This document shows positions 1 to 15,895 of a stretch of 15,895 bases of DNA, piece after piece. Every line of letters starts with the position of its first letter. Within the stretch, counting starts at the first letter, position 1. This DNA comes from Coprinopsis marcescibilis (lineage: Eukaryota; Basidiomycota; Agaricomycetes; Agaricales; Psathyrellaceae). Location of the stretch: positions 1 through 15,895 of the forward strand of contig ML210536.1 of assembly GCA_004369085.1 (NCBI GenBank), read 5' to 3'. The notes under the pieces are model-generated. The model saw only the letters and a program-made list of their open reading frames with translations. It was not told the DNA's origin and ran no database searches. The position numbers and the translations under genes are program-made.

Positions 1-104
1 TCCTCATTCACCTCCTCTTCAACTTCCTTCTCAGGCTCCACTGCCTTGACCTTCTCAGCCTCTGGTTTCTTCACTGGGGGAGGAGCAATTGGACAGTCAT
101 CCCT
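1..104 (-). CDS. Partial acidic, Lys/Glu/Pro-rich open frame running off the left edge
   Basis: Reading the - strand from 104 to 1 gives an open frame of about 34 codons with no stop, beginning just after a TGA at 107-105. It carries a DDCPIAPPPVKKPE stretch followed by alternating Glu, Lys and Val (EKVKAVEPEKEVEEEV). I do not recognise a family. It could be the charged tail of a cellular protein or a piece of a transposon Gag. No start or splice site was identified, and the frame is open to the window edge, so only part is visible. Confidence 0.25.
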
Positions 105-216
105 TCACATAATAATTAATATTGATGTACAAAACCAAATTTATTGAAATGACTACGAACATGATAGTTGTTGACTACAAGTATTCACAGGGGCGTTAAA
201 CAGGGCAGATGGAGAC

Positions 217-1245
217 GTGGCTGCACTGAAAGGTGGCACAGGCACAGGCAGCAGTAAAGGCAGTGGTGGGGTTGTTGTAGTGAGAGCAACGCGGGCAGTG
301 ACAAGGCAGGCAGGACAATGCAGGCGCGAGCACTCATGTTGCACAAAGCCGGGGGGTGAGGAAGCAGGCGGAACGGCACAGGCGCAGATGATCACGTCAC
401 TCAAAGCCGGGAGTGACAAAGCAGGCAAGACGACGCAGGCAGCACAACAGCTGGGGGAGAGACAAAGCAGGCAAGACGACACGGGCAGCACAAGGGCCGG
501 GGGTGACAAAGGAAGCAAGACGATGCAGCAGCACAAGGGCCAGGGTGACAAAGCAGGCAAGACGAAGTGGGCAGCACAAGGGCCAGGGGGACAAAGCAGG
601 CAGGAGGACACTCACATCGCACGAAGAAGGCGATCGACACGGGTGCAAGCGCTCACGTCACACGTAAGGCTGGCGGTGACGAACGAAGCGGGAGGACGCG
701 GGTGCGAACTTTCACATCGCACAATGGCGGGTGGTGATGAACCAAGCGGGAGAACACAGGCGCGAACGCTCACGTCGCAGGAAGGCGGGGTGATGAAGCG
801 GGCGGGGTGATGAAGCGGGCGGGACGACGCAGGCGCTCACGTCGCACGAAGGGGGTAACAAAGAGGGCGGGACGCCGCTGGCGCTCAAAGGCGGGCGGGA
901 TGCCGCTGGTGCTCAAAGGCGGGCGGGACGCCACTGGCGCTCAAAGGCGGGCAGGACGCCGCTGGCGCTCAAAGGCAGGCGGTGACGAACAGGGCGGGAT
1001 GGCGCGGGCGCGAACACTCACGTTGCACGAAGGCGGGCGATGAAGAAGGGGGCGGGGCGGCACGGGCGCGGGCGCTCATGTCGTGCGAAGGCGGGCGGGA
1101 CGGCGCGTGCGCAGGCGCTCACGTTGCACGAAGGTGGGCGGTGACGAAGCAGGCGGGACGGCGTGGGACAGCGCAGGCGCGAATGCTCACGTTGCACGAA
1201 GGTGGGGGTGACGGAGAGGGCAGAGCGAACAGAGGCGGGCGGGGC
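217..1245. repeat. GC-rich minisatellite block with three related sub-arrays
   Basis: About 1 kb of degenerate tandem repeats. From about 400 to 600 a unit of roughly 45 bp carries GACAAAGCAGGCAAGACGA and GCAGGCAGCACAAGGGCC. From about 600 to 1240 a unit of roughly 50 bp carries GCGCTCACGTCGCACGAAGG and a GCGGGCGGGACG core. Between 862 and 973 four near-perfect 28-bp copies end in GCTGGCGCTCAAA. Several long open frames exist on both strands only because stop-poor GC-rich units repeat; none looks like a conserved protein. The block is rich in CpG, unlike the decayed transposons to its right. Confidence 0.8.
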
Positions 1246-1339
1246 AAGTGTTTTGCGTCTGCTATTGGCAAAACAGGGGGCAGAGGTGGAGAGAGAGGGA
1301 GAATAGGAAAGAAGATCGAGGGCCCCCGTTTGGGAGGGG

Positions 1340-1367
1340 CACTGATCAACTGTACAGTTGATCAGTG
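1340..1367. repeat. Perfect 28-bp palindrome
   Basis: The 14-base arm CACTGATCAACTGT is followed directly by its exact reverse complement, with no spacer. It lies between the GC-rich minisatellites and AT-rich DNA. It could be two transposon ends abutting head to head, a symmetric protein-binding site, or a hairpin/cruciform. Slightly downstream, GGCAAAA (from about 1402) and TTTTGCC (about 1431-1437) form a second, loose inverted pair. Confidence 0.85.
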
Positions 1368-1536
1368 GCTTTTCCCACGCCGCAGATCCCAGGGCGGGAC
1401 CGGCAAAACCTGAAACACTCAAATTCCGGATTTTGCCAGTCCAGTTCAGAAATTTGTTTTATTTATTTTTTATTGATCTTTTGTATTGTCAGTTAAAATA
1501 ATGGTTATATTGGCTCTTGTCTTGATTACTTCAACA

Positions 1537-1616
1537 GGCCCTATAGTGTAGTAGTAATATTGCTTTTACTTGTGTCTAGGGCCCTTGGTTCAATTCCTGT
1601 TAATGGTATTTTTTTT
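1537..1616 (+). mobile_element. tRNA-derived SINE head (Pol III A and B boxes)
   Basis: TAGTGTAGTAG at 1544-1554 matches the Pol III A-box consensus TRGYNNARNNG exactly, and GTTCAATTC at 1588-1596 matches the B-box consensus GWTCRANNC exactly, at the 44-base spacing of a tRNA gene. Eight T residues at 1609-1616 could end transcription. The T-arm stem (CTTGG against CCTGT) pairs poorly and no clean acceptor stem is visible, so this is not a working tRNA gene; a tRNA-derived SINE or tRNA pseudogene fits better. The element's 3' end was not found; AT-rich sequence continues to about 1740. Confidence 0.5.
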
Positions 1617-1776
1617 CTCCAACTTACAAAATTAACTTGACAACTACAGATTCCTTTTTGACTGATTTTTTTTTGATCATATATAAATAGATCCATTCCA
1701 CCTTTCATCATGTTACATAGATTCATGTATAAAATTTTCCAATTGCAGGCAGCACAACACTGTACATCAAGTTTCC

Positions 1777-1864
1777 AAGGAGTATATGGGGAGTGTACGA
1801 GGAGTATACGGGGAGTGTACAAGGAGTGTATGAGGAGTGTATGGGGAGTGTACGAGGAGTGGAT
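1777..1864. repeat. 12-bp minisatellite (GAGTGTACGAGG-type)
   Basis: About seven degenerate copies of a 12-bp unit, GAGTGTACGAGG with variants such as GAGTGTATGGGG. Two further copies follow at about 1925-1945. Because 12 is a multiple of three, it creates open frames on both strands (Tyr-Thr-Pro or Glu-Glu-Cys repeats) with no coding support. It sits just upstream of the gypsy fragment and may have grown inside the element's gag or linker region. Confidence 0.75.
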
Positions 1865-1944
1865 ATACAGTGCATAAGCTGTGTTCATGTTGTGTCTGCA
1901 CTGTGTCCATGTTGTGTACAATTGAGTGTACGAGGAGTGTACGT

Positions 1945-2840
1945 ACACCCGTGGGCCAGTGTAAAGTACTCTGTATATGCCATAAAAGGGGACATGTCAA
2001 ATGGAACTGCCCAAACAAGGATAAGAGTGTATGAGTTGCAGACACAGGAAGTGAAAACATGGATTTTTCATAGGGGACATCTCAAGGTCAATGGAGATCA
2101 TCCCTGAACTGTTATTCAGAACAGTGATGATCAAATCCATATATAATCAATCAATTTTACTCCCAATACAGGTTCCTGAAAGAAGCATTGACACAAAAAC
2201 ACTTGTCAACTTGGGTGCAGACAGCATATTTGCAGACAAACAAATGGTGCAAAAATACAAAATCCCTGAAAAACAACTTGAAAACCCCATAATCATCTGA
2301 AATGTTGATGGAACCCCAAGCAAAACTGGATCAATCACAACCACAGTGGAACTTGAATTCAGCATCAATAGATGATTTGAACAATACACTATGTATGTGG
2401 CTGGTCTGGGAAAATGGGATTTCATCTTTGGAACTCCATGGCTACAAAAAGAAAACCCCAACATCAATTGGGCTTTGGGAACAGTAGAATGGAGAAACCC
2501 AAAGTCTCCTACAATGGAAGAAGAAGACAACAGTCTTGTCATTGCATTCATAAAAGGAGAAAACACAGAAGAACTTCATGAAGTCTGGCTCAATGCCACA
2601 ATGATTGAAGAAAAACCAAAGCTTGAAGAAAACCTCAACAAAATTATATCAAAAGCATTTCATCAATTTCTTGAAATATTCTCAGAAAATACTTCAAACA
2701 GATTTCCAGAAAAGAAAGAATGGGACCATGCAATCAACCTCACACTGGTAGAAAAAAGAGAACTTTGAAGAAAATCTGAAGAAAGGATATATCAGAGACT
2801 TAAAATCTCCAATGGCTGGATGGTGATGTTATATAAGCTG
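1945..2840 (+). pseudogene. pol: Ty3/gypsy retrotransposon fragment: degenerate zinc knuckle, retropepsin, start of RT
   Basis: A Gag-like CICHKRGHVKWNCP segment (about 1970-2020) resembles a CCHC zinc knuckle but its first cysteine is out of register. From 2091 one frame reads a retropepsin-like domain: TLVNLGADS, then after a stop NVDGTPSKTGSIT, then after another stop GLGKWDFIFGTPWLQ and NPNINW. The catalytic Asp of the usual DSGA/DTGA motif is Asn here and the following Ser is Leu, so the protease would be dead. Next come the linker to reverse transcriptase (FPEKKEWDHAINL, about 2703-2745) and, after a deletion and frameshift, KKGYIRDLKSPMAGW (about 2779-2823), the first strand of RT. The rest of RT, RNase H, integrase and both LTRs are not seen. 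In-frame stops at 2298 and 2373 are both TGA where Arg is usual. Confidence 0.8.
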
Positions 2841-3440
2841 ATCAATGACTGTACAATCCTAATTTCGTTAAACAAAAAACTTGCTTGGTGCTCACCTGCA
2901 TACCAGAAAAGATCAGAAGGTGGTTGCATCCTGTGAGTTTTGGAGAGGATGTCAGCAGCAGGGAAGAGGTTTTTGAGGCTGAATGTCGAGTCAGTGTCTG
3001 GAACTGTGGTGTAGGTCAGATGGGTTGGTGTTATGAGGTGGATCAGAGGCGGATGAAGATTAAGGATCAGAGGTCAGTTGACAGTTGAGATCATGGTTAA
3101 ACTCTAGATTACATACCAGAGCAGCTCAACAAAAGCACCCTACCAAGACGAATATGTTAGTACTAAGACAAAAGTGTGACCAAGTATGCACTGATTAGTT
3201 TGGAAAAGTGGTCTTTGTTGATGAATCATTGGTGGAAAAATGCAGCTGCAAGAGGAGGGGTGGGTTTGTTGTTGATATGCTTGTGAGGGGGCACAGGGAG
3301 GGAGCAAGGAATGCAGACAGAGGATGTGATGCAAGGGAAGGGAGAAATAAAACTCACCAGCAAGAACCCACCTGTCACTACCAAATCCATTGTGTATGGT
3401 GCACTGAAGACATCCAAATATGGTGCGGGACAAATGTGAG
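2841..3440. other. Stretch without a supported gene
   Basis: After the gypsy fragment the sequence holds no long frame of convincing composition. On the - strand, about 3356-3440, a short exon-like frame reads PAPYLDVFSAPYTMDLVV and ends at a good GTGAGT donor. It may belong to the same broken - strand gene as 3441-3790, but joining it would need a poorly supported intron. Confidence 0.4.
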
Positions 3441-3790
3441 GCTCAACAGAGGGGGAGGGAGGAGGGAGGGAGGGATCCTTCACGCCTGTCCAAGAATCTA
3501 AATGGAAAGCTCAACGTAAATCTCCTTGATGGCTTTGATCCACTGGGGCAGCGCTCGTCCACCTGCATACACGATTTAGCAAGCCAGGTGAGAAGCTCTT
3601 TGTTCAATGCACCATCGTGCTTGCTGATCAGGTTGCTGTAGAAGTAGTCGAGGCTCAGGACATGGAAACCTATCAGGTGATATGTTCATTAGGTAGGTAA
3701 GCAGGGAGGTGGGTGCTAATAGGCACATACCAGCAGTGGCAAATATCACTCCCTGAGTCTTTATAATTGATGGGGAGGTTATAAGCTATG
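3441..3790 (-). pseudogene. Remains of an unrecognised multi-exon - strand gene
   Basis: On the - strand an exon from about 3784 to 3731 (SIIKTQGVIFATA) ends at a GTATGT donor. A 61-nt intron (3730-3670) with a CTAAT branch-like site and CTGATAG acceptor leads into a second exon in phase (GFHVLSLDYFYSNLISKHDG, then NKELLTWLAKS). About 110 bases in, a one-base shift moves the protein-like frame to GGRALPQWIKAIKEIYVELS, which then meets TAG. I do not recognise the family; the helix-rich, ungapped look suggests a real protein remnant, possibly from a repeated fungal gene family. The frameshift and missing ends argue for a pseudogene, though a sequencing error or unusual splice could explain the shift. 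Confidence 0.4.
3449..3474 (+). repeat. G-rich tract with quadruplex potential
   Basis: Five runs of three or more G separated by single or few A bases (GGGGGAGGGAGGAGGGAGGG and on). Four-run combinations with short loops fit the usual G-quadruplex pattern. It falls inside the broken - strand gene remnant, so it may be an expansion in an old intron. Confidence 0.6.
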
Positions 3791-4234
3791 AATACAGCCT
3801 CATAACTACTACAGATCATATATGTAAAATCTCAGTGTTATAGATATGTTTGCCAAAATGACGATACAAATTTTTCTGTGATTTTTGGATAAGAAATGGG
3901 AGCAGGAGGTGCTGTTCAATGGCCAAAATTTGTGAAAAATCACAGTGTACCTGAGTATCTTACCAGATCGAAGGTGATACCACAGGGTGTTCGTGCCTAT
4001 AATTTTTTTAGCACTGCCAGCAGGTATATAGAGTACATCTACAAGATAATTTTAAGAGATCTGGGACTCAGAGGGAGGTAGTGTACTGTACAATGAGGAG
4101 GGTAGAAACAAGACTTCCAAGTGTGACATATTCAAGCTCCGATCAAATGCCTTCGTGCTCTGCCAGGCTGGCAGTGAGTGACACATGACTGGCAAGCAAC
4201 ACAATAGACAAATTACAAGTCTCAAAGCCTCCAG
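3791..4234. other. Stretch without a supported gene, one exon-like island
   Basis: A - strand 33-base segment (3996-3964, reading ARTPCGITFDL) lies between a TTATAG acceptor-like site and a GTAAGA donor, so it may be another exon of the gene remnant at 3441-3790, but the connecting sequence is not resolved. Directly upstream of 4235 I searched by eye for a transposon terminal inverted repeat matching the region after 5500 and found none. Confidence 0.3.
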
Positions 4235-5714
4235 ATGCCCAAAGCTGTGCAATACAGGAAGAAGAAGGTTGACTACAGCAATCTGGAAATTCGTGACACA
4301 TTTGAGCAAGCGCTAAAAGAGCTGAAGGGAGGAAAACACAACAGCTCAGTCACCAAAGCACTTTGCACCCATAACCTCCCTACTCTTGCCTACCAAACCT
4401 TCCATAACAGATGGCTAAATTGCATGAAGGTGCCCAAGGAAGCCCATGATCAAATGCTGCTCAGCCCTGAAGCCGAAGTTGTTCTCATCGACTGGATCAA
4501 GTTTCTTGGATTTGTTGGGAGGCCTGTCTGTACAGCAACTATCAGACCCAAGGTTCTTGAACTCAGAGGACGATATTCAGGGAAGCACTGGCTTTGAAGA
4601 CTTCTCAAATGCCACCCTGCCATCAGAGCTTGAAGAGCTGCCGGATTGGACCCCAAACAAGCTCATTGTTTCAACTATCCAGTGGTTAATGAGTTCTACA
4701 GGAAACTGAAAAAGGAGTTGGAGGAGAAGGATATACCTTGGGAGAATGTGTACAACATGGATGAGAAAGGGATACAAACTTGGAGGTGGAAGGAAAGGAA
4801 CCCTGACAAAGTACTTCTTCTCAAGAGACAACCGAGCAAATTACAAGCTTTGAGACACCAATTTAATGCTCATCAGCATCATCGAGTGCTGTGCAGCAGA
4901 TGGGGGGGGGGGGGCAATATTTCCTGGATTTGTGTTTCCTGGAACAGTTATTGATATTGAAGCATTCAAGGTTGAAGAGGCCAGAGAATGACGGCGGATT
5001 GAACAGGAGGAGGAACGGAAGCAGGATGAGAAGCAGGAGGCAGAGAGGAGGAAAGTAGTCCGTGTGCTTGCAACACAGAATTGTCAGGTGAACATGGCAA
5101 CAGATCATGCATTTACTGGCCCCCTTACCAGCAAAAACAAGGACCAGCTCAAGGATATCATGATCGTACTTGAGTTAACCATCCAAGGGACTAAGTCCAA
5201 TATTCTAACAAAAATTCAAGCTCACTTCCAAGCCAATGAGGCTGCTAAGGCAGACCCCCACTTTGTTGGTCTTTTTACTCATCGGTCCAATCGTCAAGCA
5301 GCAGCTCCAGCCCAGCAAGACAAGAATATCCCTCTGCCTATTCCACCAGTGAACCCAACTCAGCAACCACGTCAACCACAGCCCCACTTGCCACTGCCAA
5401 TGTGGGCACTATCTCATCTCAACATGTCCAATGACTACTACGCCTCTTGCCCTCCCTACAAGAGTCATGCTGGCCTGTCGCATATTCACCAGACTGAATC
5501 CACATGCTATATCCAACACGTTCAGTGTACATGCAGCCAATGGCCACTTGCCCACCTTTTCAACAACACTTGCCTGGACCCTCACAATATTACCATAGTA
5601 CAATGTATTGTCCATACTCGTAATAAGATTGTTTGTTTGTCATTTTTGGGAAAAAAGAAGGATAATACAAGTCCTTGCAAAGGACTTCAAACTGCCTCCC
5701 TCACTGCTGCGTGA
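4235..5714 (+). pseudogene. pogo-like DNA transposase, internally deleted and broken
   Basis: The frame from ATG 4235 (MPKAVQYRKKKVDYS) contains a psq-type helix-turn-helix (about residues 15-50), then a CENP-B/Tc5-like segment (SPEAEVVLIDWIKFLG, GRPVCTATIRPK). In the same frame follow GLDPKQAHCFNYPVVN and the start of the DDE core, IPWENVYNMDEKGIQ, whose Asp is the first catalytic residue. An extra A near 4776 shifts the frame. It resumes at 4779 (LGGGRKGTLTKYFFSRDNRA), runs through a 13-G tract (4902-4914) and FPGFVFPGT, then jumps straight to a charged coiled-coil tail (about 4995-5060). The second and third catalytic acidic residues are therefore lost to an internal deletion. A SAP-like segment follows (LKDIMIVLELTIQGTKSNIL) and then a Pro/Gln-rich tail. 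In-frame stops at 4595, 4631, 4851 and 4989 are all TGA. No TIR was found. Confidence 0.8.
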
Positions 5715-5970
5715 CAGAGCCAAGCGGAGTTGAATCGGCAGAGTGTGACAGGCTGTGACACTGTTATAAAGACTATGGATTTTCGACTTGGACACACCGG
5801 AATTCATCCATTCAAAGTACCTACCTAATTACCATGAAAGTAAGTAGGCAGAAGTTGAGACTGGTCATTTTGCTAACCTACCCTGAGCCCCTGGTAGGAT
5901 TTTAGGCCCAGGAACATACTCAAAAACATGCACCTTTGAAATTTTTATAATTATCAGGGGATTGATAGTA
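5715..5970. other. Short AT-rich spacer between two DNA-transposon remnants
   Basis: No open frame of note. It includes TTATAAAG near 5764, followed by ordinary AT-rich sequence. It ends in the TA (5969-5970) that is one half of the target duplication of the next element. Confidence 0.4.
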
Positions 5971-6038
5971 GAGCAGCTGGCGGATTTGTGAATTCAGAAT
6001 GTTCCGAAAATTTGATTGCCCCTAGCATAGGGTTCCAA
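5971..6038 (+). repeat. Left terminal inverted repeat
   Basis: 68 bp, inverted match to 6611-6678. Both differences are A here against G in the right copy (at 5975 and 5996), each turning a CpG into CpA. Similarity decays into a weak match for about 20 bases further inward. Confidence 0.85.
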
Positions 6039-6610
6039 ATACATACTGCGTGACAAGACTGTGATATTGGGCAGCTGGGCTCTACTTTTCAAACTTGGAG
6101 CTGTACTCGTCCAAAGTCAAATTCAAGAAGCTGGTTGTTGGTCTTGTCCTTGGCATTGAAGTGGAGTCCAGCTTTAGGTTGGCTTGGTGCCAGAATCTTC
6201 GTGCAATAGAGGTGGGTTGTTGTATGCTTGCTCCATGCCAGAAGCAACTCCTGTAGTACTGGATGCTGCACCATGCTACCCAGAACAGATTTCAGGCTGT
6301 AGGAAAGGCTGTGGATTGCATTCTGGAAGAGCCTGTCTGGCTGGAGATTTGGGCTGAGAAAACTCAAGTAAGAATTGAGAGAATAGAGGTTTCATCCTCT
6401 ATCAAGTTCTGCAATGTCTCCTTCAAAACAGTATCAGAGCAAGGAGGCATGTAGGCAGATGGGATCAAAATTCAAAATTCATATTGCTATTTCAAAGGTG
6501 AGATATGGAATGACTACTTGACCCATCTCTTCTCCCCCTCCATGAAATGCCCGACTAATTAGTGGCAGGTGCTTGCATGTGATCATTGTCACACTGTAAT
6601 ACCTCGCATC

Positions 6611-6678
6611 TTGGAACCCTATGCTAGGGGCAATCAAATTTTCGGAACATTCCGAATTCACAAATCCGCCAGCCGCTC
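6611..6678 (-). repeat. Right terminal inverted repeat
   Basis: 68 bp, reverse complement of 5971-6038 at 66 of 68 positions. It keeps both CpG sites that are changed in the left copy. It includes TTCGGA and TCCGAA flanking ACAT, a short internal inverted repeat. Confidence 0.85.
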
Positions 6679-6680
6679 TA

Positions 6681-7537
6681 TCGAGCACTGAACATAATTC
6701 ACACATCAAAGTGGCCAAACAAGAACCAAACATCATTCTCATTTGATCTACTTAGGTCAGTGAAGCTGCTCGATACGAGCGGCTGGTTTAGGAGCCTGGG
6801 AAGAGACCTGACGATTGGTTGACTCGGTTTATGTCGTGGGAAGTTGACTTCATTATGTCATGACGGGCGGGCGGCGGGTCGGCACGACGGACTCAGGGCT
6901 TTGGCCGTTTTCGCCCTTTCAAAGGTGATCTTCAGGTGACTTAAACGCTACCCCAAACCATTCACAGCCATAATCCATTTCGTCCCGTACTACAGGTACA
7001 TACCTGGACTGTGCGTTGCGTGTATGATCGCCAGCGCTTAATCATGCTGTTATCCCGTGATAACATCACATACCGGTCCGGAGATAAGGGAGATGACAAC
7101 GTCTGCATCAAGGATTTAACGCGGTGCTGGGGGTGTGTTTGAAGGGGCCATTACGAACAGCCTCATGAGAGCAACCCTCAGGCCGATAGACACAGAAATT
7201 TGCATTGCAAACGAATTACATGATCTTTTCTCTTCGATGCCGAATTCACGGCCGAACTTGGCAGGTGTATAATGTGGTGCTGCTGATTGAGGTGATCTGG
7301 ATACTGACCAAGAGTTATGAACGTCAAAACCTGGATCCAATGGATCTTGCCGGATTCTGTCCACCCTTGGTCTGAATCAAATCCTAGTTCCAAAATACTT
7401 ACGAAGGAGGTAGTCCACCCCTTCCAATCGCAATCAATGCGATGACTTTCCACCTGGAAGGCGATGCAATGAAACATCAAAGGGGCACTCGGAAAACCCC
7501 GGATTCCTTCCTCCTCAACGCAGTCGTGTCGACTGTA
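6681..7537. other. Intergenic region upstream of the single-codon-exon gene
   Basis: No convincing gene. Visible structure: AGCTGCTCG/CGAGCGGCT arms (6764-6784) that resemble two ends of the neighbouring TIR placed back to back, and a perfect GTTATC-CCGT-GATAAC inverted pair (7049-7064), a possible paired GATA-factor site. A - strand frame about 7364-7116 reads HYTPAKFGREFGIEEK but has no family, start or splice support. Confidence 0.4.
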
Positions 7538-7605
7538 CATATAAGCCCCGCCAATCAACACCACTCTCCCACTTCTCTCACCCCCACTTCGTCTTCTTTC
7601 ACTTT
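7538..7605 (+). promoter_or_regulatory. Putative core promoter of the single-codon-exon gene
   Basis: CATATAAG at 7538-7545 is a good TATA box, followed by CCAAT (7551) and a long CT-rich tract (about 7560-7605), the typical fungal layout in which transcription starts in the pyrimidine block. It lies about 270 bases before the proposed start codon at 7809. Confidence 0.5.
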
Positions 7606-7808
7606 ACCACCATATCCCCTGCAGCAAGGTAGTATCCGCCGTCTAATGCATATCGAGCATGTTGACCCTGTAGAGTATAGTAAGATGACAAGAAACCTAA
7701 ACGAAATGATTAACCAGCTGGAGGAGATGTTGCGCAAATTGGAGGCGAGTCAGATCTCTGGGAAACGGGCTGACCTTGCTAAAACCGCTTCGTTGCTCCC
7801 ATCGACAG
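7606..7808 (+). promoter_or_regulatory. Putative 5' leader with candidate introns
   Basis: Between the CT block and ATG 7809 lie candidate donors (CAAG|GTAGTA at 7629, TATA|GTAAGA at 7680), a CTGAC branch-like site (7770) and a CGACAG acceptor ending at 7808. If the 7680-7808 intron is removed, the start codon would itself be a 3-nt exon. If the leader stays unspliced, an upstream ATG at 7646 opens a different 141-codon frame (to 8071) that reads through the first introns and begins with a coiled-coil-like NLNEMINQLEEMLRKLEA. Leader splicing could therefore decide which product is made. Confidence 0.35.
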
Positions 7809-8371
7809 ATGGTATGTCGCATAGAAGGGCCCTTGTTGGAGGGTATGATATCCTGACCATGAGCAGAAGGTATGCTGCGGTGTCCTCGTGCAAACAATGC
7901 GGGGCAACTGAGAGCGTGGCCGATCGCCTGTTGGTAGAAGGTATGGTGTCCCATTCAGCTAAGTACGAAAGACCTGTGACCCGAGTTCTGACCCACCTTG
8001 GTGTAGCCTGTGAGAATCTTCCCAGCATCGAGTTGAACATGTCAGAGATAGCTGAGATACGACTCGCATGATACCTATTACCGGGTTTTTGCATGGCAGG
8101 TAGGACTGAATTGATGAAAAGAGATTGAGATGTTGGAATCTAAATACTATGGTTCTAGGGAGTGAGTTGGATTCTACGAGTTATTGAGGATGCTCATATC
8201 GCGAAAATTGCGCAAAATTTGCTTGTCCAGATTCTGGTACGCTTATCCCTTTTGAACAAACAACGGTGGCCTGATACGGCAACAGGGCGAGCTGCTGACA
8301 AAGGTGAAGGCTTAGAACTTAAAAGGAAAAGATGAGCTAATATGCCCTTGAAACAATGCGGTGCTAAGACC
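7809..8371 (+). other. 5' exon cluster with unrelated introns (codons 1-14)
   Basis: Exons: 7809 ATG, 7867 AAG, 7938 AAG, 8007 CCT, 8159 GGA, 8231 ATTCTG, 8286-8303 (six codons, GELLTK), 8369 ACC. Introns are 55, 68, 66, 149, 69, 49 and 65 nt, and do not resemble each other. Donors are GTATGT, GTATGC, GTATGG, GTGAGA, GTGAGT, GTACGC and GTGAAG; several have CTGAC, CTGAT or CTAAT before the acceptor. The only long intron (8010-8158) contains CAG|GTAGGA at 8099/8100, which would split it into 90 and 59 nt as a zero-length exon. The AAG|GTATG context of the second and third codons is repeated but the rest of those introns is not. Confidence 0.65.
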
Positions 8372-11300
8372 GTACGTATTGGTTGAACGAAAGCTAGCGC
8401 TACAGGAACAACTCTGACGCAATTGCAATCACTGCTACTCTACAGGAGGTACATAATGCGCTAATGTTTGCATAAGCCGTGCTGACCTGTTTGGAATCCC
8501 TGGTGCTCTGCAGGCCGTGGGTGATGGGCTCTTCCCGCCTGCATAGGCCACGCTGACGATTGCAATCCCTGGTGATCCACAGGAAGTGCGTGATGCGCTC
8601 CTCCCGCCTGCGTAAGCCACACTGACGATTGCATTCCCTGGTATTTGATAGAGAGTGCGTGATGCGCTCCTCCCGTCTGCGTAAGCCACATTGACCCGAT
8701 TGCAATCACTGGTATTTGACAGAGAGTGCGTGATGCGCTCCTCCCGTCTGCGTATGCCACGCTGACCCGATTGCAATCCCTGGTCCTCTACAGGAAGTGC
8801 GTGATGTGCTTCTCCCGCCTGTGTAGGCTACCCTGACCAAACTGCAATCCGTGGTGCTCTACAGCTGGTGCGTGATGCGCTCCTCCCGCCTGCCTAGGCC
8901 ACGCTGACCCGATTTCAATCTCTGGTGCTCTACAGGAGGTGCGTGATGCGCTCCTCCCGTCTGCGGACGCCACGCTGACCCGATTACAATCCCTGGTCCT
9001 TCATAGAGAGTGCGCGATACGATCCTCCCGCCTGCGTAGGGCACGCTGACCCGATTGCAACTTCTTACAGCAAGTGCGGGATGCGCTCCTCCCGCCTGCG
9101 AGCCATGCTGATGTTCACACTCCTTGGTACTCTACAGGCCGTGCGTGATGCACTGAGCCCACCTCCGTACACCGCGCTGACCCAATTGCAATCCCTGGCG
9201 CTCCACAGGATGTGCGTGATATGCTTTCCCCGCCTACGTACGCCACGCTGACCGACTGATTGCAACCCCTGGTGCTCTACAGGCCGTGCGTAATGCGCTC
9301 CTCCCGCCTGCGTAGACCACGCTGACCCCATTGCAATCCCTGGTGTTCTGCAGCCGGTGCGTGATGCGCTCCTCGCGCCTGCGTAGGGCACGCTGACCTG
9401 ATTGCAATCCTTGCCGCTCTACAGACAGTGCGTGATGCACTCCTCCTCCCTGCGTAGGCCACGCTGACGCGATTGCAATCCCTGGGGCTCGACAGCTCGT
9501 GCGTGATGCGCTCCTCCCGCCTGCGTAGACCACGCTGACCCGATTGCAATCCCTGGTGCTCTACAGGAAGTGCGTGATGCGCTCCTCACGCCTGCGTAGG
9601 GCACGCTGACCCGATTGCAATTCCTGGTGCTCTACAGAGAGTGCGTGATGCGCTCCTCCTCCCTGCGTAGGCCACGCTAACCCACTTGCAATCCCTGGTG
9701 CTCTACAGGCCGTGCGTGATGCGCTCCTCGCGCCTGCGTAGGCCACGCTGACCCGATTGCAATCCCTGGTGCTCTCCAGAGAGTGCGTGATGCGCTCACC
9801 CCACCTTTGTACGCCACGCTGACCCTTGCAATCCCTGGTGCTCTACAGCTCGTGCGTGATGCGCTCCTCCCGCCTGCGTAGACCACGCTGACCCAATTGC
9901 AATCCCTGGTGCTCTACAGGAAGTGCGTGATGCGCTCCTCCAGCCTGCCTAGGCCACGCTGACCTGATTGTAATCCTTGGTGCTCTCCAGAGAGTGCGTG
10001 ATGTACTCCTCCTGCCTGCGTAGGCCACGCTGACCCGATTTCAATCCCTGGTGCCCTACAGGCAGTGCGTGATGCGCTTGGCCCGCCTGTGTAGGCTACC
10101 CTGACCAACCTGCAATCCGTGGTGCTCTACAGGAAGTGCGTGATGCGCTCACCCCACGTTTGTACGCCACGCTGACCCGATTGCAATTCTTGGTCCTCTA
10201 CAGGAAGTGCGTGATGCACTGAGCCCACCTTCGTACGCCACGCTGACCCACTTGCAATGCCTGGGCCTCTACAGCTCGTGCGTGATGCGCTCTTCTCGCC
10301 TGCGTAGACCACGTTGACCCGGTTGCAATCTCTTGTGCGCTACAGAGAGTGCGTGATGCGCTCTTCCTGCCTGCGCAGACCACGCTGACCCGATTGCAAT
10401 GTCTTGTGCTCTACAGATAGTGCGTGATGTGCTTCTCCCGCCTGCTTAGGCCACGCTGATCCGATTGCAATCCCTGGTGCTCTCCAGAGAGTGCGTGATG
10501 CGCTCCTTCCGCCTGCGGAGGCCACGCTGACCCGATTGCAATCCCTGGTCCTTCACAGAGAGTGCGTGATGCACTGAGCCCACCTTCGTACGCTACGCTG
10601 ACCCGATTGCAATCTCTGGTGCTCCGCAGTTCGTGCGTAATGCCCTCCTTCCGCCCGCGTAGGCCACGCTGATCCGATTCCAATCCCTGGTCCTCTACAG
10701 GAAGTGCGTGATGCACTGAGCCCATCTTCGTACGCCACGCTGACCCGATTGCAATACCCGCTGCTCTACAGTTTGTGCGTGATGCACTGAGCCCACCTTC
10801 GTAGGCCACGCTGACCCGATTGCAATCTCCGGTTCTCTCCAGAGAGTGCGCGATGCGCTCCTCCCGCCTGCGTAGGCCACGCTGACCGGATTGCAATCCC
10901 TGGTGATCCACAGGAAGTGCGTGATGCGCTCCTCCTGCTTGCGTAGACCACACTGACCAAACTACAATGCATGGTGGTCTACAGAACGTGCGTGGTGCGC
11001 TCCTCCCGCCTGCGGGGGCCAAGCTGATGATTGCAATCTCTGGTCCTTCACAGAGAGTGCGTGATGCACTCCTCCAGCCTGCGTAGGCCACACTGACTCG
11101 ATTGCAATCTGTCGTGCTCTACAGGAAGTGCGTGATGCGCTCCTCCCGCCTGCGTAGGCCACGCTGACCGAGTGCAATCCCTCCCCCACAATATGTAGCT
11201 TGTGAGTCTTGTACTTCGGTGTTGGTCTGGTTACCCTTTACTCACACTCATACGCTCAGTTTGTACGCTGCGTTCTGCTCTGATTCTCCAAATTCGTATG

Positions 11301-11930
11301 TATATTCACCGCTTCCTAGTGGGTATGTCCACCCATCCTCTGCATTATTCCACACAGAGCTAACTTATTCCTTCAGTTTGTGCGTGTCATCAATTAGATC
11401 TAACCTCTGAGCCACTAACGGGGACTTTTATCTCGTTTAACAGACCGTAAGCCGTACTAATTACAAGGCGTCGCATGTTAATATCATATTTTGGCTTTCT
11501 TATTAGGTTGTAAGCTGCATACATTCTGTCATTACCTCCAGTTGCATGACTATCTGTATAGCACGTAGGTTGTTTAGTCCCATCGAGTGTTCCTGGCCAT
11601 TGATCTCGTTGCTTGCAATATGGTCCTATAGCTCGTATGTCATCTCACATCACCAGTCATATTCTACATTATACCCAACTAATGCTAATGTTCTTCTTTT
11701 AGGTCGTAAGTCGCTCCGACATGTATTAGTACAGAACCCACCGCTATGATGGTCTTCTTTTTGTAGAAAGTACGCCTCCTTCTCATGGGTGCCTTTGACG
11801 CTGCACTCATCCTTTTCTTTTCTAGCTTGTGAGTTCCATTTGTTTAGCTATGGGAATCATCACCACGATGTGTCGTGTGACTCAGGAAGCAAGTGGTTCA
11901 TTGCTCGACTCACTGCATACTTTTGTTTAA
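7809..11930 (+). CDS. Gene composed almost wholly of single-codon exons (59 coding exons, 78 codons)
   Basis: Splicing at every AG|NNN|GT gives one phase-0 frame from ATG 7809 to TAA 11928-11930 with no internal stop. Residues 1-13 are MKKPGILGELLTK, 14 is Thr, 15-34 are EAERRELERQADAPTLERAR. Residues 35-53 (LERAEELRIRRFEFRENRE) continue the Arg/Glu helix, 54-64 (LFWFTVVLVKL) are hydrophobic, and the tail is EASGSLLDSLHTFV. All exons are 3 nt except 6 nt at 8231, 18 nt at 8286 and the last, 45 nt at 11886. The other two phases hit stops: phase 2 at the first junction, phase 1 at TTT/AGA (10772/10843). Introns are mostly 54-74 nt with fungal donors and branch sites and make up about 94% of the gene. 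No family is recognised. A short charged amphipathic helix with a possible membrane-touching end is all that can be inferred. Splicing is predicted, not observed; the fallback reading is a non-coding intron-like satellite. Confidence 0.7.
8372..11198 (+). repeat. Tandem array of 71-bp intron-plus-codon units (codons 15-53)
   Basis: Thirty-nine triplets lie between near-identical introns, most exactly 68 nt, with donor GTGCGT, branch GCTGAC about 27 bases from the end, palindrome GATTGCAATC, and acceptor CTACAG or CTCCAG. Triplet starts: 8446 GAG, 8514 GCC, 8583 GAA, 8652 AGA, 8723 AGA, 8794 GAA, 8865 CTG, 8936 GAG, 9007 AGA, 9071 CAA, 9138 GCC, 9209 GAT, 9283 GCC, 9354 CCG, 9425 ACA, 9496 CTC, 9567 GAA, 9638 AGA, 9709 GCC, 9780 AGA, 9849 CTC, 9920 GAA, 9991 AGA, 10062 GCA, 10133 GAA, 10204 GAA, 10275 CTC, 10346 AGA, 10417 ATA, 10488 AGA, 10559 AGA, 10630 TTC, 10701 GAA, 10772 TTT, 10843 AGA, 10914 GAA, 10985 AAC, 11054 AGA, 11125 GAA. 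AGA occurs 11 times and GAA 9; none is a stop. The two edge introns (8372-8445 and 11128-11198) are half family, half unique. Confidence 0.9.
11199..11930 (+). other. 3' exon cluster with unrelated introns (codons 54-78) and terminal exon
   Basis: Exons: 11199 CTT, 11260 TTT, 11320 TGG, 11377 TTT, 11444 ACC, 11507 GTT, 11569 GTT, 11632 CTC, 11703 GTC, 11767 AAA, 11826 CTT, then 11886-11930 (14 codons and TAA). Introns are 54-68 nt, non-homologous and T-rich before each acceptor. Donors: GTGAGT, GTACGC, GTATGT, GTGCGT, GTAAGC twice, GTTTAG (weak), GTATGT, GTAAGT, GTACGC, GTGAGT. CTAAC or CTAAT branch sites are clear in the introns ending 11376, 11443 and 11702. An alternative end exists: after GAA 11886-11888 the next bases are GCAAGT, a strong GC-AG donor, with an acceptor at 11943 and an in-phase frame from CTT to TGA at about 11997. 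Confidence 0.7.
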
Positions 11931-11939
11931 CCATGTAAT

Positions 11940-12414
11940 TTAGCTTGATTGCGGGATCGAATCAAAGGCCACGACTACCGGCCAGTTCTGGGGATGAAGA
12001 AGAGGCGTGTCGGTGAGTTATGGTATTGAAAATGACTTGAGGGTGTCCATGTGCTTACATCGATAATGAATGCCAGTGTGGACAACGCGCATCCGCGCCT
12101 ACACAGCAAGTCCCAACTCAAAGGTTCTACCTGATATAGAATTAACCTACCCTGGCAGACGATGGATGACGGCAGGTCTGGAGACTGGAATGATTTGAAT
12201 GAGTTGGGATGAGAGGCTATTGCTCTGTGCGCGGTCACCGGGTGTGCAAGGATGTAGTAGTATAGTGCCAGACACTGAACCGCTTTCCTGCTAAACGTTT
12301 GGCCTCATTGAGAACCCAGTTTCTATTCGTACGGTGGTAGTCCGCTCGCAATATCGTCCCAGAGTATGGATGTGACCAGCGATAGATATTTGAGCATACA
12401 CCAGTATCATCATG
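11940..12414 (-). CDS. 3' part of a convergent multi-exon gene of unknown function
   Basis: Four - strand exons join in phase: 12414-12239 (contains IYRWSHPYSGTILRADY and NWVLNEAKRLAGKRFSVWHY), 12177-12151 (AVIHRLP), 12098-12059 (RGCALSTLAFIID) and 11987-11940 (NWPVVVAFDSIPQSS, stop TAA). Introns are 61, 52 and 71 nt with donors GTGACC, GTAGGT and GTAAGC and acceptors TCTCCAG, TGTGTAG and CCCCAG. Phases close exactly (split Arg and Gly codons). The frame is blocked by TAG at 12415-12417, which may be the acceptor of the exon. I do not recognise the family. Its stop lies 9 bp from the stop of the opposite-strand single-codon-exon gene. Confidence 0.45.
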
Positions 12415-12494
12415 CTATCACAACCGTTCATGACCATCTCTTGGCCGTCCCCCGTCTGCGGTGTAGCTCAAGGTAGGCTTGAACAGTCCATAAT

Positions 12495-12753
12495 CTGACA
12501 CCAGTCAGATCATTAGGAATCTGGGCTGTGGAGGGTGGAGAAGAAGGTACGACTCAGCTGCTTCAAGTGGAGCATCGGATGAGGTCTTGGCTTGTGAGTG
12601 GGCAAATAGAGTGAGTCGGGTATCGCTCCCTCTGCGTCTCACGAGCTCCAACAGCTTCTCGTGAAATTGACATATATTCGCCTGTAAAATCACTGTCACT
12701 CCCATTTATTGGTATCTCCCAGTCCCAAAACGCTCACCGTAACTTGTACCCAT
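12495..12753 (-). CDS. Possible 5' exons of the same - strand gene
   Basis: ATG at 12753 opens a 16-nt exon (MGTSY) ending at GTGAGC. A 56-nt intron with TTTTACAG acceptor (12682) leads to GEYMSISREAVGA. A further GTGAGA...CACAAG intron (about 49 nt) and a GTACCT...CTGACTGGTGTCAG intron (12550-12495, 56 nt) keep a frame open (SSDAPLEAAES, then LWTVQAYLELHRRRGTAKRW to about 12440). I could not connect this to the exon at 12414 with good sites, so the model is tentative and the two parts may be separate genes. Confidence 0.3.
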
Positions 12754-14130
12754 TGATTAATCAAGTCCTAGGACTATAAGTGATGGACGCGCCCTTCGGC
12801 GCACCTAAATAAATAGTCTTGCTAACCCCGACTTCTAAGACTAAGACTAACCAACTAAACCTAACCTCCTAAGCCTCACCTCCTAACCGGAACCCTCGCT
12901 TAACGGGCGGGAGTATCAAAAAGGTCAGCCAGGCAGCGCTCGGCAACCAACGCACCGTCTTTGGTTTCCCCTCACTTATTGGAATGCTCCCACTATACTT
13001 TTTTGTTATGCCCGCAATCGTGGGCTGTAGTCGATGCGATTGGAGGGCGGGCGATGCGAGAATACACGGGGGAGAGACGCGAAGAAGCTGAGTGGATTAG
13101 GGTGCATACATGCGTATAGATATCCACTAAGCAGCCCATTTAAACAGCCAAGTCACAAGAGCGGGGATTTCCCAGCATCGACAAAGCCATCCTGCGTGAG
13201 TATATTCTACGAGACATCATACCACACATCTGACAGTCACATCATCGTTTGAGTGTGCGAGGGACGTGTGTTTTGGAGGGCGAGAGGACAGTTCAGGCAC
13301 GGGCCCTGGTTGGCTGGCTGCCGGGCTGGCTCGGTATTGTGTCGAGCTGCCTGGCAATGGGCAGAGGCAAGGGTGTACTGCAGTCGCGGTGGGGTGCTAC
13401 AGATTGGGTGGCACAGCCACAATACCAAATCTAATCTGATCGGCTGTAAACCCTGGCGATGGATAGGCGAGAGGGAGGTTGGAGCAGACAAAGCAGGAGC
13501 AGGAATATGAATATATGAATATAACTCGGAGACCAGCGAAGAGTCGGAGTGGGGCGTGAATGCGCAGGCCGAAACATATACTCGATTGGTAAAGTGGGTG
13601 CTGAACGATGGGCTCAGAAGGGGCAGTCAAGACAAGGTGTTTTGGATGTATGCATCGAACGATACGATAGGGCAGGAGGGATGTAGTGCAGTTGTGCTTC
13701 TTGATTATTGATGCTCTAGGGGCACATGGTTCAAGGTTGGCTCTCTGCAACCATCATTTATTATTCCGACCCGCCGCGCAGTCACCCGCCTCAGTAACCC
13801 GGCAATCAACGTGTTCCTTCTGACTTGGATTTGTCAACCATGTACCTTCCACAACGACGTCCACACTAAGTATCCCTTCAGTATGACAGTATTTTTCAAC
13901 AAATATTCCGGAGCTGTGGTTGCGCTTGCAGAACAAGGTTTAATGTCATAATATGATGGCAGTACATGGTGCACGATACACAGTTTCGGTGGTATTTGTG
14001 ATACTTGATCATTGCTCGCAGTCGTCAGACATGGTTTTTCTATTGTTCCTGGAATTATCATTTCTCTGCTGCTGTGTCTACTACCCAGGCTCAAAAAGCT
14101 CAGCGACTGTGTCTGTGACCATGACTGCTT
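12754..14130. other. Intergenic stretch with short palindromes and a CTAA-rich tract
   Basis: No gene is supported. Visible structure: a perfect palindrome AGTCCTAGGACT (12764-12775), a hairpin GCGCC-CTTC-GGCGC (12789-12802), and a CTAA/CCTAA-rich tract (about 12820-12898) with some nine CTAA copies at irregular spacing, reminiscent of degenerate telomere-like sequence but without a fixed unit. Further right, TATAGATATCC (about 13114) and TTTAAA near 13139 could be promoter elements, with a GTGAGT donor at 13195, but no credible frame follows. Frames on either strand between 13234 and 13940 look random. Confidence 0.4.
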
Positions 14131-14170
14131 GCCAATTATGGTGATAATTGGGCGATACCACAGTGGTATC
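14131..14170. repeat. Two adjacent inverted repeats
   Basis: CCAATTAT-GGTG-ATAATTGG (14132-14151) is followed two bases later by GATACCAC-A-GTGGTATC (14154-14170). Both are perfect, with 8-base arms. They lie about 80-120 bases upstream of the TATA box at 14249 and could be operator-like sites or a folded DNA/RNA element. Confidence 0.6.
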
Positions 14171-14248
14171 CCTCCCGATCACTGACTGTACCATACCTGA
14201 CCATATAAGGAATTTTGGTTGAAGTCTGGAATGGCTGGGTTGGCTGCA

Positions 14249-14256
14249 TATAAAAG
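14249..14256 (+). promoter_or_regulatory. TATA box upstream of the gene copy at 14393
   Basis: TATAAAAG, a canonical TATA element, about 140 bases before the ATG at 14393. The T-rich stretch around 14330-14390 between them is consistent with a fungal start region. Confidence 0.4.
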
Positions 14257-14392
14257 ACATAATGTGAAGGTAGGAGTATTTCAACTCGTTATGATATTTT
14301 GACCCAGCCCAAGTTTTAACTTGTAGTTGGGTGCCTTCTATTTTATTATTCCTGTCCTTTACAGATACTCTGTCGCTCATTTTTTACCCTTA

Positions 14393-15895
14393 ATGTCTGA
14401 CAACTTTCTCGCTCATTTTACCCCTGACCAAATTGCTTGACTTCGGACAGCACTCGAGGTACAGGCTCCTCCACAAAACTCGACAAATGACTCATCGGTT
14501 TCTATACCTGGGCGACGACAGTCAGGTTTGTGATGCTGGATTAATATGTTAATAACAATTACTCATTTATATTTAGCAGGCTTTCCATCTACCTTCCCTC
14601 GTCCTCCAACCCAGCCTCACCCAGTGGTGCAGCCACATCCACTGTCCCAGGTTCCAAGTCATTCGACACAATTTACACCTAGCACACAGCCCTCCTCTCT
14701 ACTGCCATCCTTGCCGATAACAAGCATGTATCAAAGCACTTGCATTGGCACTTCTAATGGCCACCCTCAATCTTTGTCACAGCTTCGAGGAGGGTTTCAG
14801 CCATTTGTCGGGGCAAGTGCCTTGGCTGTACCTCTATCGACCAACAATGCAAACCAGGCAAGGAGAGCTTCTGCTGCAGCAACTTTACCAGGCTGAGGCC
14901 CTGCTCGTCCTCATCGTCGTGGACCTGCTGTGAATCCTCCAGGTCTTGCACCTCTTGGAGTCAATGGTGCCATTTGTTCCTGTATGGTGGATGAATCTGG
15001 AGACAACATCAGAATAATTATTAAGGTCTACCCCAATACTCCTGTGGTATGTGTAATCACTTTTTTTGCTCTACTCTGATAGTTAATAATCTAAATTATT
15101 CCAGGGAGTTAACCATCATATCCTATACCGATTTCGCAAAGCATCAGTGAACCGATGGCTTCAGGATCACCACCTCTATCTCGAACTGGAGGTTCCTGTC
15201 GCAACTACCATCAACAGTCTTATGGCCCATACCATTATTCGTATGGAAGCTTCGCCTTTTTGGTATAGCTTTTCACCTCATCTTGTTGATACTGCGATTG
15301 AAGAGGACTTTCGACTCTGCCTTCTCCGACTTGTTGCTCGTGGTGTGGCCTCTAACCGAGCAAGTGGTGATGTCAGACTAACAGGGGAACCTGTCCTTCA
15401 GTCCATGACTATTCAGAATCTTTTGCAGGCGAAGCCCAAGTATATTGGGTTGGATGGTCTCTGTATCGAGAGTAACCCCCCTTGATTTGTGATTCATTTT
15501 GGTGAGCCTTCTATTAGTCTTGCAGAAACATTGTCTTAAATGTTGCTTTTATAGCTGCATTGTCCCCCCAGTATACAATGGGTGGTCATAGGTATGGTAC
15601 ATCATGCTTGTCCAACCACTTTTTTAGTTGCTTTTCGACTGATCACCAGCCTCAGCTAAGGGTACCCAGTGGTGGTTTACTGGGGCACTCTGATGCCGAT
15701 ACCTCAGGGGGAGAAGACGATAGTCTAAGTGAAAGTGAGGACTCTGACTCCGACTCACAAGCAGGTTGTCACATGCCAGTACAGCGATCATTCACTCAAG
15801 TAAGTGTTTGCTTTCTCCATCTGTATTGTTTCTCAATTTGTACTTTCTCTATTATAGCTATCTGTTTCCACTCCCAGGTTGCAGGCAGCAACTAT
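14393..15895 (+). pseudogene. Five-exon gene copy of unknown, probably repeated family; three in-frame TGA; runs off the edge
   Basis: Exons 14393-14525, 14580-15046, 15105-15501, 15555-15799 and 15858 onward join in phase across introns of 54, 58, 53 and 58 nt (donors GTTTGT, GTATGT, GTGAGC, GTAAGT; acceptors AGCAG, CCAG, TATAG, TATAG). The product starts MSDNFLAHFTPDQIA, then has a Pro/Ser/Gln-rich low-complexity region. A well-ordered part follows (IRIIIKVYPNTPVGVNHHIL, YRFRKASVNRWLQDHHLYLE), then an acidic Ser/Asp stretch (SGGEDDSLSESEDSDSDS). I do not know its function; the look is of a repeated agaricomycete gene family, possibly transposon-linked, but that is memory and not evidence. 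TGA codons at 14438, 14894 and 15483 interrupt an otherwise clean frame; Arg would fit at each. It is therefore probably a recently silenced copy, unless TGA is read through. Confidence 0.65.

Follow-up and report, generated by a model that had tools for sequence, protein, structure and literature searches.

On the plus strand of contig ML210536.1 of Coprinopsis marcescibilis (GenBank assembly GCA_004369085.1; 36.3 Mb in 448 contigs), we find a locus at positions 7809-11930 that is probably a spliceosomal gene in which 56 of 59 exons consist of a single codon. Its short introns would be removed serially to give a message for a 78-residue peptide, and its middle would have grown by duplication of cassettes. 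The window analyzed here is the whole stretch of 15,895 nucleotides (nt) in which this locus lies, positions 1 to 15,895 of the contig. The layout of splice signals across the locus is real and difficult to account for other than by splicing. Most of the locus is a tandem repeat, and the independent evidence is its repeat-free 3′ part together with the pattern of variable and invariant columns among the repeat units.

Structure of the exon-intron chain

We rebuilt a chain of 59 exons and 58 introns across 7809-11930 and found that 56 of the exons are exactly 3 nt long, with 7 in a 5′ part, 38 in a central array and 11 in a 3′ part. The other three measure 6 nt (8231-8236), 18 nt (8286-8303) and 45 nt (11886-11930, with TAA at the end), and the length of every exon in the model (59/59) is a multiple of three, making all of them symmetrical. 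The exons that precede the terminal one add up to 192 nt in the model, counted from the ATG. Introns range from 49 to 74 nt with a sole exception of 149 nt (8010-8158), and two donors fall outside the pattern GTRNG (GTACAT at 8449 and GTGAAG at 8304). At the level of sequence signals the chain has the short, splice-signal-bounded exons of a microexon gene, in which such exons would be joined in the mRNA. The parts of the chain and its upstream region are as follows.

7540..7628 (+), putative core promoter and 5′ leader, with TATAA at 7540, CCAAT at 7551 and a pyrimidine-rich stretch at 7570-7620 (82% C+T)
7629..7808 (+), candidate intron of the 5′ untranslated region, ending CAG/ATG, with a donor-like GTAGTA at 7629 or GTAAGA at 7680, and with CTGAC followed by a stretch without AG up to the CAG (all by eye)
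7809..7811 (+), ATG as a 3-nt exon, the start codon of the phase-0 reading
7812..8513 (+), 5′ part with introns of 49-149 nt and the one-codon exons AAG 7867, AAG 7938, CCT 8007, GGA 8159, ACC 8369 and GAG 8446; it also contains the 6-nt and 18-nt exons
8514..11127 (+), central array of 38 one-codon exons, from GCC at 8514 to GAA at 11125, with introns of 61-71 nt and a period of 71 base pairs (bp)
11199..11828 (+), 3′ part of 11 one-codon exons, CTT TTT TGG TTT ACC GTT CAC CTC GTC AAA CTT
11886..11930 (+), terminal exon of 14 codons followed by TAA

Within the 149-nt intron the junction 8100/8101 (+) reads GCAG/GTAGGA, by eye a candidate zero-nucleotide recursive splice point; its use would divide this intron into parts of 91 and 58 nt.

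A preliminary description of the locus had reported "about 55" exons of one codon each between AG and GT, with exceptions of 6 nt and 18 nt and a terminal exon whose lengths are also multiples of three, and the rebuilt chain bears this out. That description overlooked the tandem repeat which makes up most of the span and with which the triplets were seemingly co-amplified.

Spacing of splice signals beyond chance

We counted the pattern YAG-N(k)-GTRNG at all exon lengths k between 0 and 30, with dinucleotide shuffles as controls (1000 for the 3′ part and 200 for the array). In the non-repeat 3′ part, k = 3 occurred at 11 sites and every other k at no more than one, while shuffled sequences averaged 0.162 sites with k = 3 and never had more than 3. 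The array contained k = 3 at 38 sites (shuffle mean 0.565, maximum 4) and the 5′ part at 5 sites (shuffle mean 0.204, maximum 2); k = 0 was counted once in the 5′ part, at the AG/GT junction 8100/8101. Since tandem copies of a 71-bp repeat occupy most of the span, the array units do not count as independent evidence.

The longest chain of such sites at intron spacing reached 49 in the window, compared with 0 or 1 on both strands of 19 other loci of 10 kb, at most 2 in reversed controls, and never above 2 when the window was resampled 300 times under a Markov model. The 3′ part alone gave a chain of 11, and its 5000 Markov resamples never exceeded 2. One of the 20 loci fetched for this comparison, L038, came from the window's own contig and was excluded, and the 190 kb sampled elsewhere in the genome yielded no further arrays of such chains. 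When viral contigs were scanned for the motif of the unit, every stretch listed (80 of at least 120) had one match, which we took as chance. An exon length of 29 nt, reached through an internal GTAGG, was tried and rejected, as k = 29 was found at 23 places versus 38 for k = 3, with fewer units and a length that would break the frame. The signal layout and its significance are directly shown by these counts.

Anatomy of the central array

Tandem Repeats Finder identified about 38 tandem copies of a 71-bp unit, which cover most of the span, and the head-to-tail repetition characteristic of a minisatellite is found in the central array only. In an alignment of the 38 units, the three triplet columns are the most variable, with entropies of 1.70, 1.95 and 1.50 bits and no other column above 1.39. 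The GT and AG adjoining the triplets are invariant in 38/38 units, and within the branch site CTGAC the T and the A never vary. Differences in unit length are located in the introns (61-71 nt), and none lies between AG and GT.

Every one of the 38 array introns contains a YTRAY branch site. On the 5′ side of this site AG is present in 33 of them, but between the site and the acceptor in one. A scarcity of AG confined to the 3′ side of the branch site fits a spliceosome that accepts the first AG beyond the branch point, as spliceosomes do. A coding repeat on the minus strand was also considered and rejected: open reading frames (ORFs) of up to 226 amino acids exist there, three units of 71 bp amounting to 213 nt, yet these frames are interrupted along the array.

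Introns outside the array and native introns

Of the 20 introns outside the array, 18 show no significant similarity to the array consensus (lowest P 0.077). The two related ones, 8372-8445 and 8449-8513, are the last two of the 5′ part, whose other seven introns are not significant, and the 11-exon 3′ part keeps the 3-nt exon even though none of its introns resembles the array significantly. Comparison of the non-array introns with one another gave P < 0.01 for 3 of 190 pairs (200 shuffles each; up to about 2 expected by chance), and one of these is the array-related pair. The 3-nt spacing persists where significant intron similarity is lost, a pattern that speaks against a simple satellite and in favor of selection for splicing of one-codon exons. 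An accidental feature of one repeat unit does not explain 3-nt exons among flanking introns without significant likeness to it.

Six introns of actin-family genes in the same genome measure 52-65 nt, begin with the donors GTAGGC, GTCCGT, GTGAGC, GTCGGC, GTGAGT and GTACGT (the two beginning GTC were read by eye), and contain a YTRAY site in 5/6 cases; a seventh gap, on C23, could not be read unambiguously and was set aside. In size and signals these native introns are similar to those of the chain, a likeness that is again observed directly.

Reading frame and coding evidence

Phase 0 is open across 78 codons from ATG to TAA, reading MKKPGILGELLTKTEAERRELERQADAPTLERARLERAEELRIRRFEFRENRELFWFTVHLVKLEASGSLLDSLHTFV and then stop, and phases 1 and 2 contain 3 and 2 stops, respectively. 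This agrees with the preliminary description, which had given ATG as first codon, 78 codons without a stop, TAA as the last and the other phases as interrupted. None of the 56 triplets is a stop (0/56). The 78 residues of the phase-0 peptide are rich in E, R, L and A, and its N-terminus, MKKPGILGELLTK, shows no clear signal peptide, as judged by eye only. Composition of the triplets is visibly biased, with 71% purine in the array triplets versus 42% in the array introns. Speaking for coding are the ATG as first triplet, the single open phase, a stop confined to the terminal exon, the purine-rich array triplets and the promoter-like leader. On balance, with the opposing observations also weighed, we lean slightly toward the view that the 78-amino-acid peptide is made.

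Several observations weigh against this gene reading. The openness of phase 0 is weak: freedom from stops is expected by chance with P ~0.07 for 55 random triplets and 0.42 for 38 triplets of array column composition. The purine excess is absent in the 3′ part (27% in triplets, 40% in introns), and among the triplet positions the third varies least, with no third-position coding pattern. Two structural candidates for the peptide, an amphipathic helix and a salt-bridge pattern, were rejected, since neither the helical moment (array P 0.84) nor the spacing of opposite charges (array P 0.69) was above shuffles. A search for protein homologues of the phase-0 peptide found none, and a Pfam search gave no match over the cut-off. 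We also looked through the genome for a version of the spliced reading without introns, which would prove a spliced mRNA. The nucleotide search matched the terminal exon itself only; the protein search was empty, which alone shows nothing. An upstream ATG at 7646 lies in another frame, within a 209-codon ORF at 7442-8071 (+) that overlaps the leader and the first four exons and for which a homologue search found none. As for splicing, the range scanned contains no YTRAY site in 6 of the 20 introns outside the array, and AG follows the chosen site in 2 of the other 14. Across 37 introns, moreover, resemblance between introns is not accompanied by resemblance of the codons on their 5′ side (Mantel r −0.07, P 0.83), and only weakly by that of the codons on their 3′ side (Mantel r 0.16, P 0.0145).

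The coding evidence for phase 0 is weak overall. Where the preliminary description had proposed a gene, its splice architecture is strongly supported by the alignment columns, the branch sites, the AG-free zones and the 3′ introns, which have little in common besides the 3-nt exon; translation is plausible, set against the statistical weakness of the open phase and the lack of a homologue or an intronless copy in the searches above.

Alternative explanations

The locus might instead be one intron of about 4 kb that is removed by a ratchet, with AG-NNN-GT serving as stepping points for a spliceosome adapted to short introns and the triplets being non-coding or incidental. Such a process would require identical signals, and it would accommodate both the weak phase-0 coding evidence and the zero-nucleotide AG/GT site at 8100/8101. 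Ratchet points, however, are described as an acceptor and a donor in juxtaposition (PMC8605326). Here that junction is the one candidate with no base retained, exactly three bases are kept at 56 sites, the chained phase runs without a stop and its first triplet is ATG, and we regard ratchet removal as unlikely. A different alternative concerns the history of the locus and is compatible with splicing, so that its odds overlap with those of the spliced gene: mobile introns may have entered an ordinary gene that already existed, landing between its codons. It would account for near-identical introns beside different codons (9496 and 9709, distance 0.044), and it recalls introner-like elements (PMC4457414) and sequence-similar stwintrons (PMC12403724), which are described as near-identical spliceosomal introns multiplied in a fungal genome. 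Introner-like elements, though, are reported from unrelated genes (PMC4457414), whereas a word-based search placed this intron family, with at least 9 matches, at this locus only. Insertion would also be needed at nearly every codon boundary in phase 0, and the uniform arginine codons of the array (see below) suggest copied codons; we consider this history improbable.

That the introns are conserved and the exons variable would also be expected of an inside-out gene, in which the repeated introns are the product, as small RNAs, and the triplets mere connectors. Hosts of small nucleolar RNAs carry known or conserved structured RNAs in their introns, and none came to light here: an Rfam search of 7400-12100 gave no match up to E = 1, the folding energies of the seven introns tried were no better than those of shuffles (z −0.35 to 1.02), and a consensus structure from 36 of the 38 units (9071 and 11125 excluded) contained no pair with two-sided change among its 7. 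The 3′ introns, moreover, show no significant likeness to the array, and we think an inside-out gene the most improbable of these possibilities. Scarcely less improbable is a minisatellite without gene function whose splice-like words are accidents of the repeat unit. The 38-copy array and the further repeats in the window are what such an element would look like, but the 3-nt spacing continues through 11 units beyond the array among introns not significantly similar to it, the most variable columns are the triplets between invariant AG and GT, and AG is scarce only on the 3′ side of the branch site.

Origin of the units and proposed mechanism

Arginine in the array is encoded by AGA in 11/11 cases, compared with 14% of the 968 arginine codons counted at the sampled loci in 33 long open frames, not all of which are proven genes. 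Because of this uniformity, the triplets were probably copied together with their units from few templates. Relatedness among adjacent units tends to run in blocks (diagonal correlation 0.23, P 0.015). Since intron closeness hardly tracks the codons, unlike what simple cassette duplication would give, later conversion among the introns is needed as well.

A 3-nt exon is hardly recognizable as an exon, and in the spliced gene that we favor the short introns (49-74 nt, one of 149) would be recognized across the intron and not across the exon. They would be excised one by one, leaving three bases each time, until a short mRNA in phase 0 remained. The middle would have expanded through tandem duplication of cassettes of an intron plus one codon, giving a young center and old ends, and each duplication would have added one residue with the frame undisturbed. 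Conversion among the introns may have followed, and the older end units would have diverged until the splice signals and the 3-nt exon alone remained. We infer transcription, sequential splicing and translation, along with this history of growth.

Comparison with known systems

A literature search of open-licence papers in PubMed Central showed, among the matches listed, no gene built almost wholly of one-codon exons. Exons of schistosome micro-exon genes are usually longer than one codon. As described, those genes resemble the chain in their many short exons, largely multiples of three with some non-symmetrical, and differ in being from animals and in having signal peptides as a feature (PMC4671649). 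Aphid bicycle and megacycle genes likewise have very many small exons, with more than 100 microexons in one gene, but the internal exons of bicycle genes are reported to be nearly all in phase 2, whereas those here are in phase 0, and at about 2000 residues the megacycle protein is far longer than the 78-residue peptide read here (PMC9168663).

Closer to our organism, gene models of Phlebia radiata are reported to contain many one-codon and two-nucleotide exons, and its GAPDH gene begins with a start-codon exon (PMC6540522). This qualifies the preliminary description, which knew of no gene like the one proposed: an almost wholly one-codon gene was indeed not found among the papers listed, but one-codon exons are frequent in the Phlebia models (PMC6540522). 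Both are Agaricomycetes with many one-codon exons; in Phlebia radiata these appear as a general feature of predicted genes, and here they make up nearly a whole frame, mostly as a tandem array. Microexons of 2-10 codons are described in P450 genes of Phanerochaete chrysosporium (PMC1184071), and a paper on Trichoderma calls functional microexons previously undescribed in filamentous fungi (PMC11121469).

Exons of 3 nt or less can be spliced, as described for a single 3-nt exon in Drosophila homothorax (PMC7392893) and a single 1-nt exon in Arabidopsis APC11 (PMC4674806), each paper describing one such exon per gene, unlike the chain. For the APC11 exon its authors propose intron definition and stepwise removal (PMC4674806), and both would apply here too, the introns being of native length.

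Other features of the window

Positions 217-1146 contain imperfect tandem repeats that are rich in GC and whose periods include 28, 43, 58 and 86 bp; a 197-amino-acid ORF at 217-810 overlaps them. Two further ORFs, 2391-2768 and 4235-4597 (+), look by eye like fragments of a retroelement or transposase, and neither gave a Pfam match over the cut-off.

Implications

If the locus is transcribed as we read it, it would represent an extreme miniaturization of exons, with dozens of 3-nt exons in succession, and would test the limits of intron definition and stepwise splicing. A protein may here be spelled one codon per exon and be lengthened or reshuffled codon by codon through cassette duplication, with interchangeable splice sites that could give an in-frame peptide library; this we offer tentatively, putting its chances a little below even. 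A locus transcribed as we read it would also mean that genes can grow in single-codon steps, and that a class of genes would be overlooked by standard annotation and read alignment.

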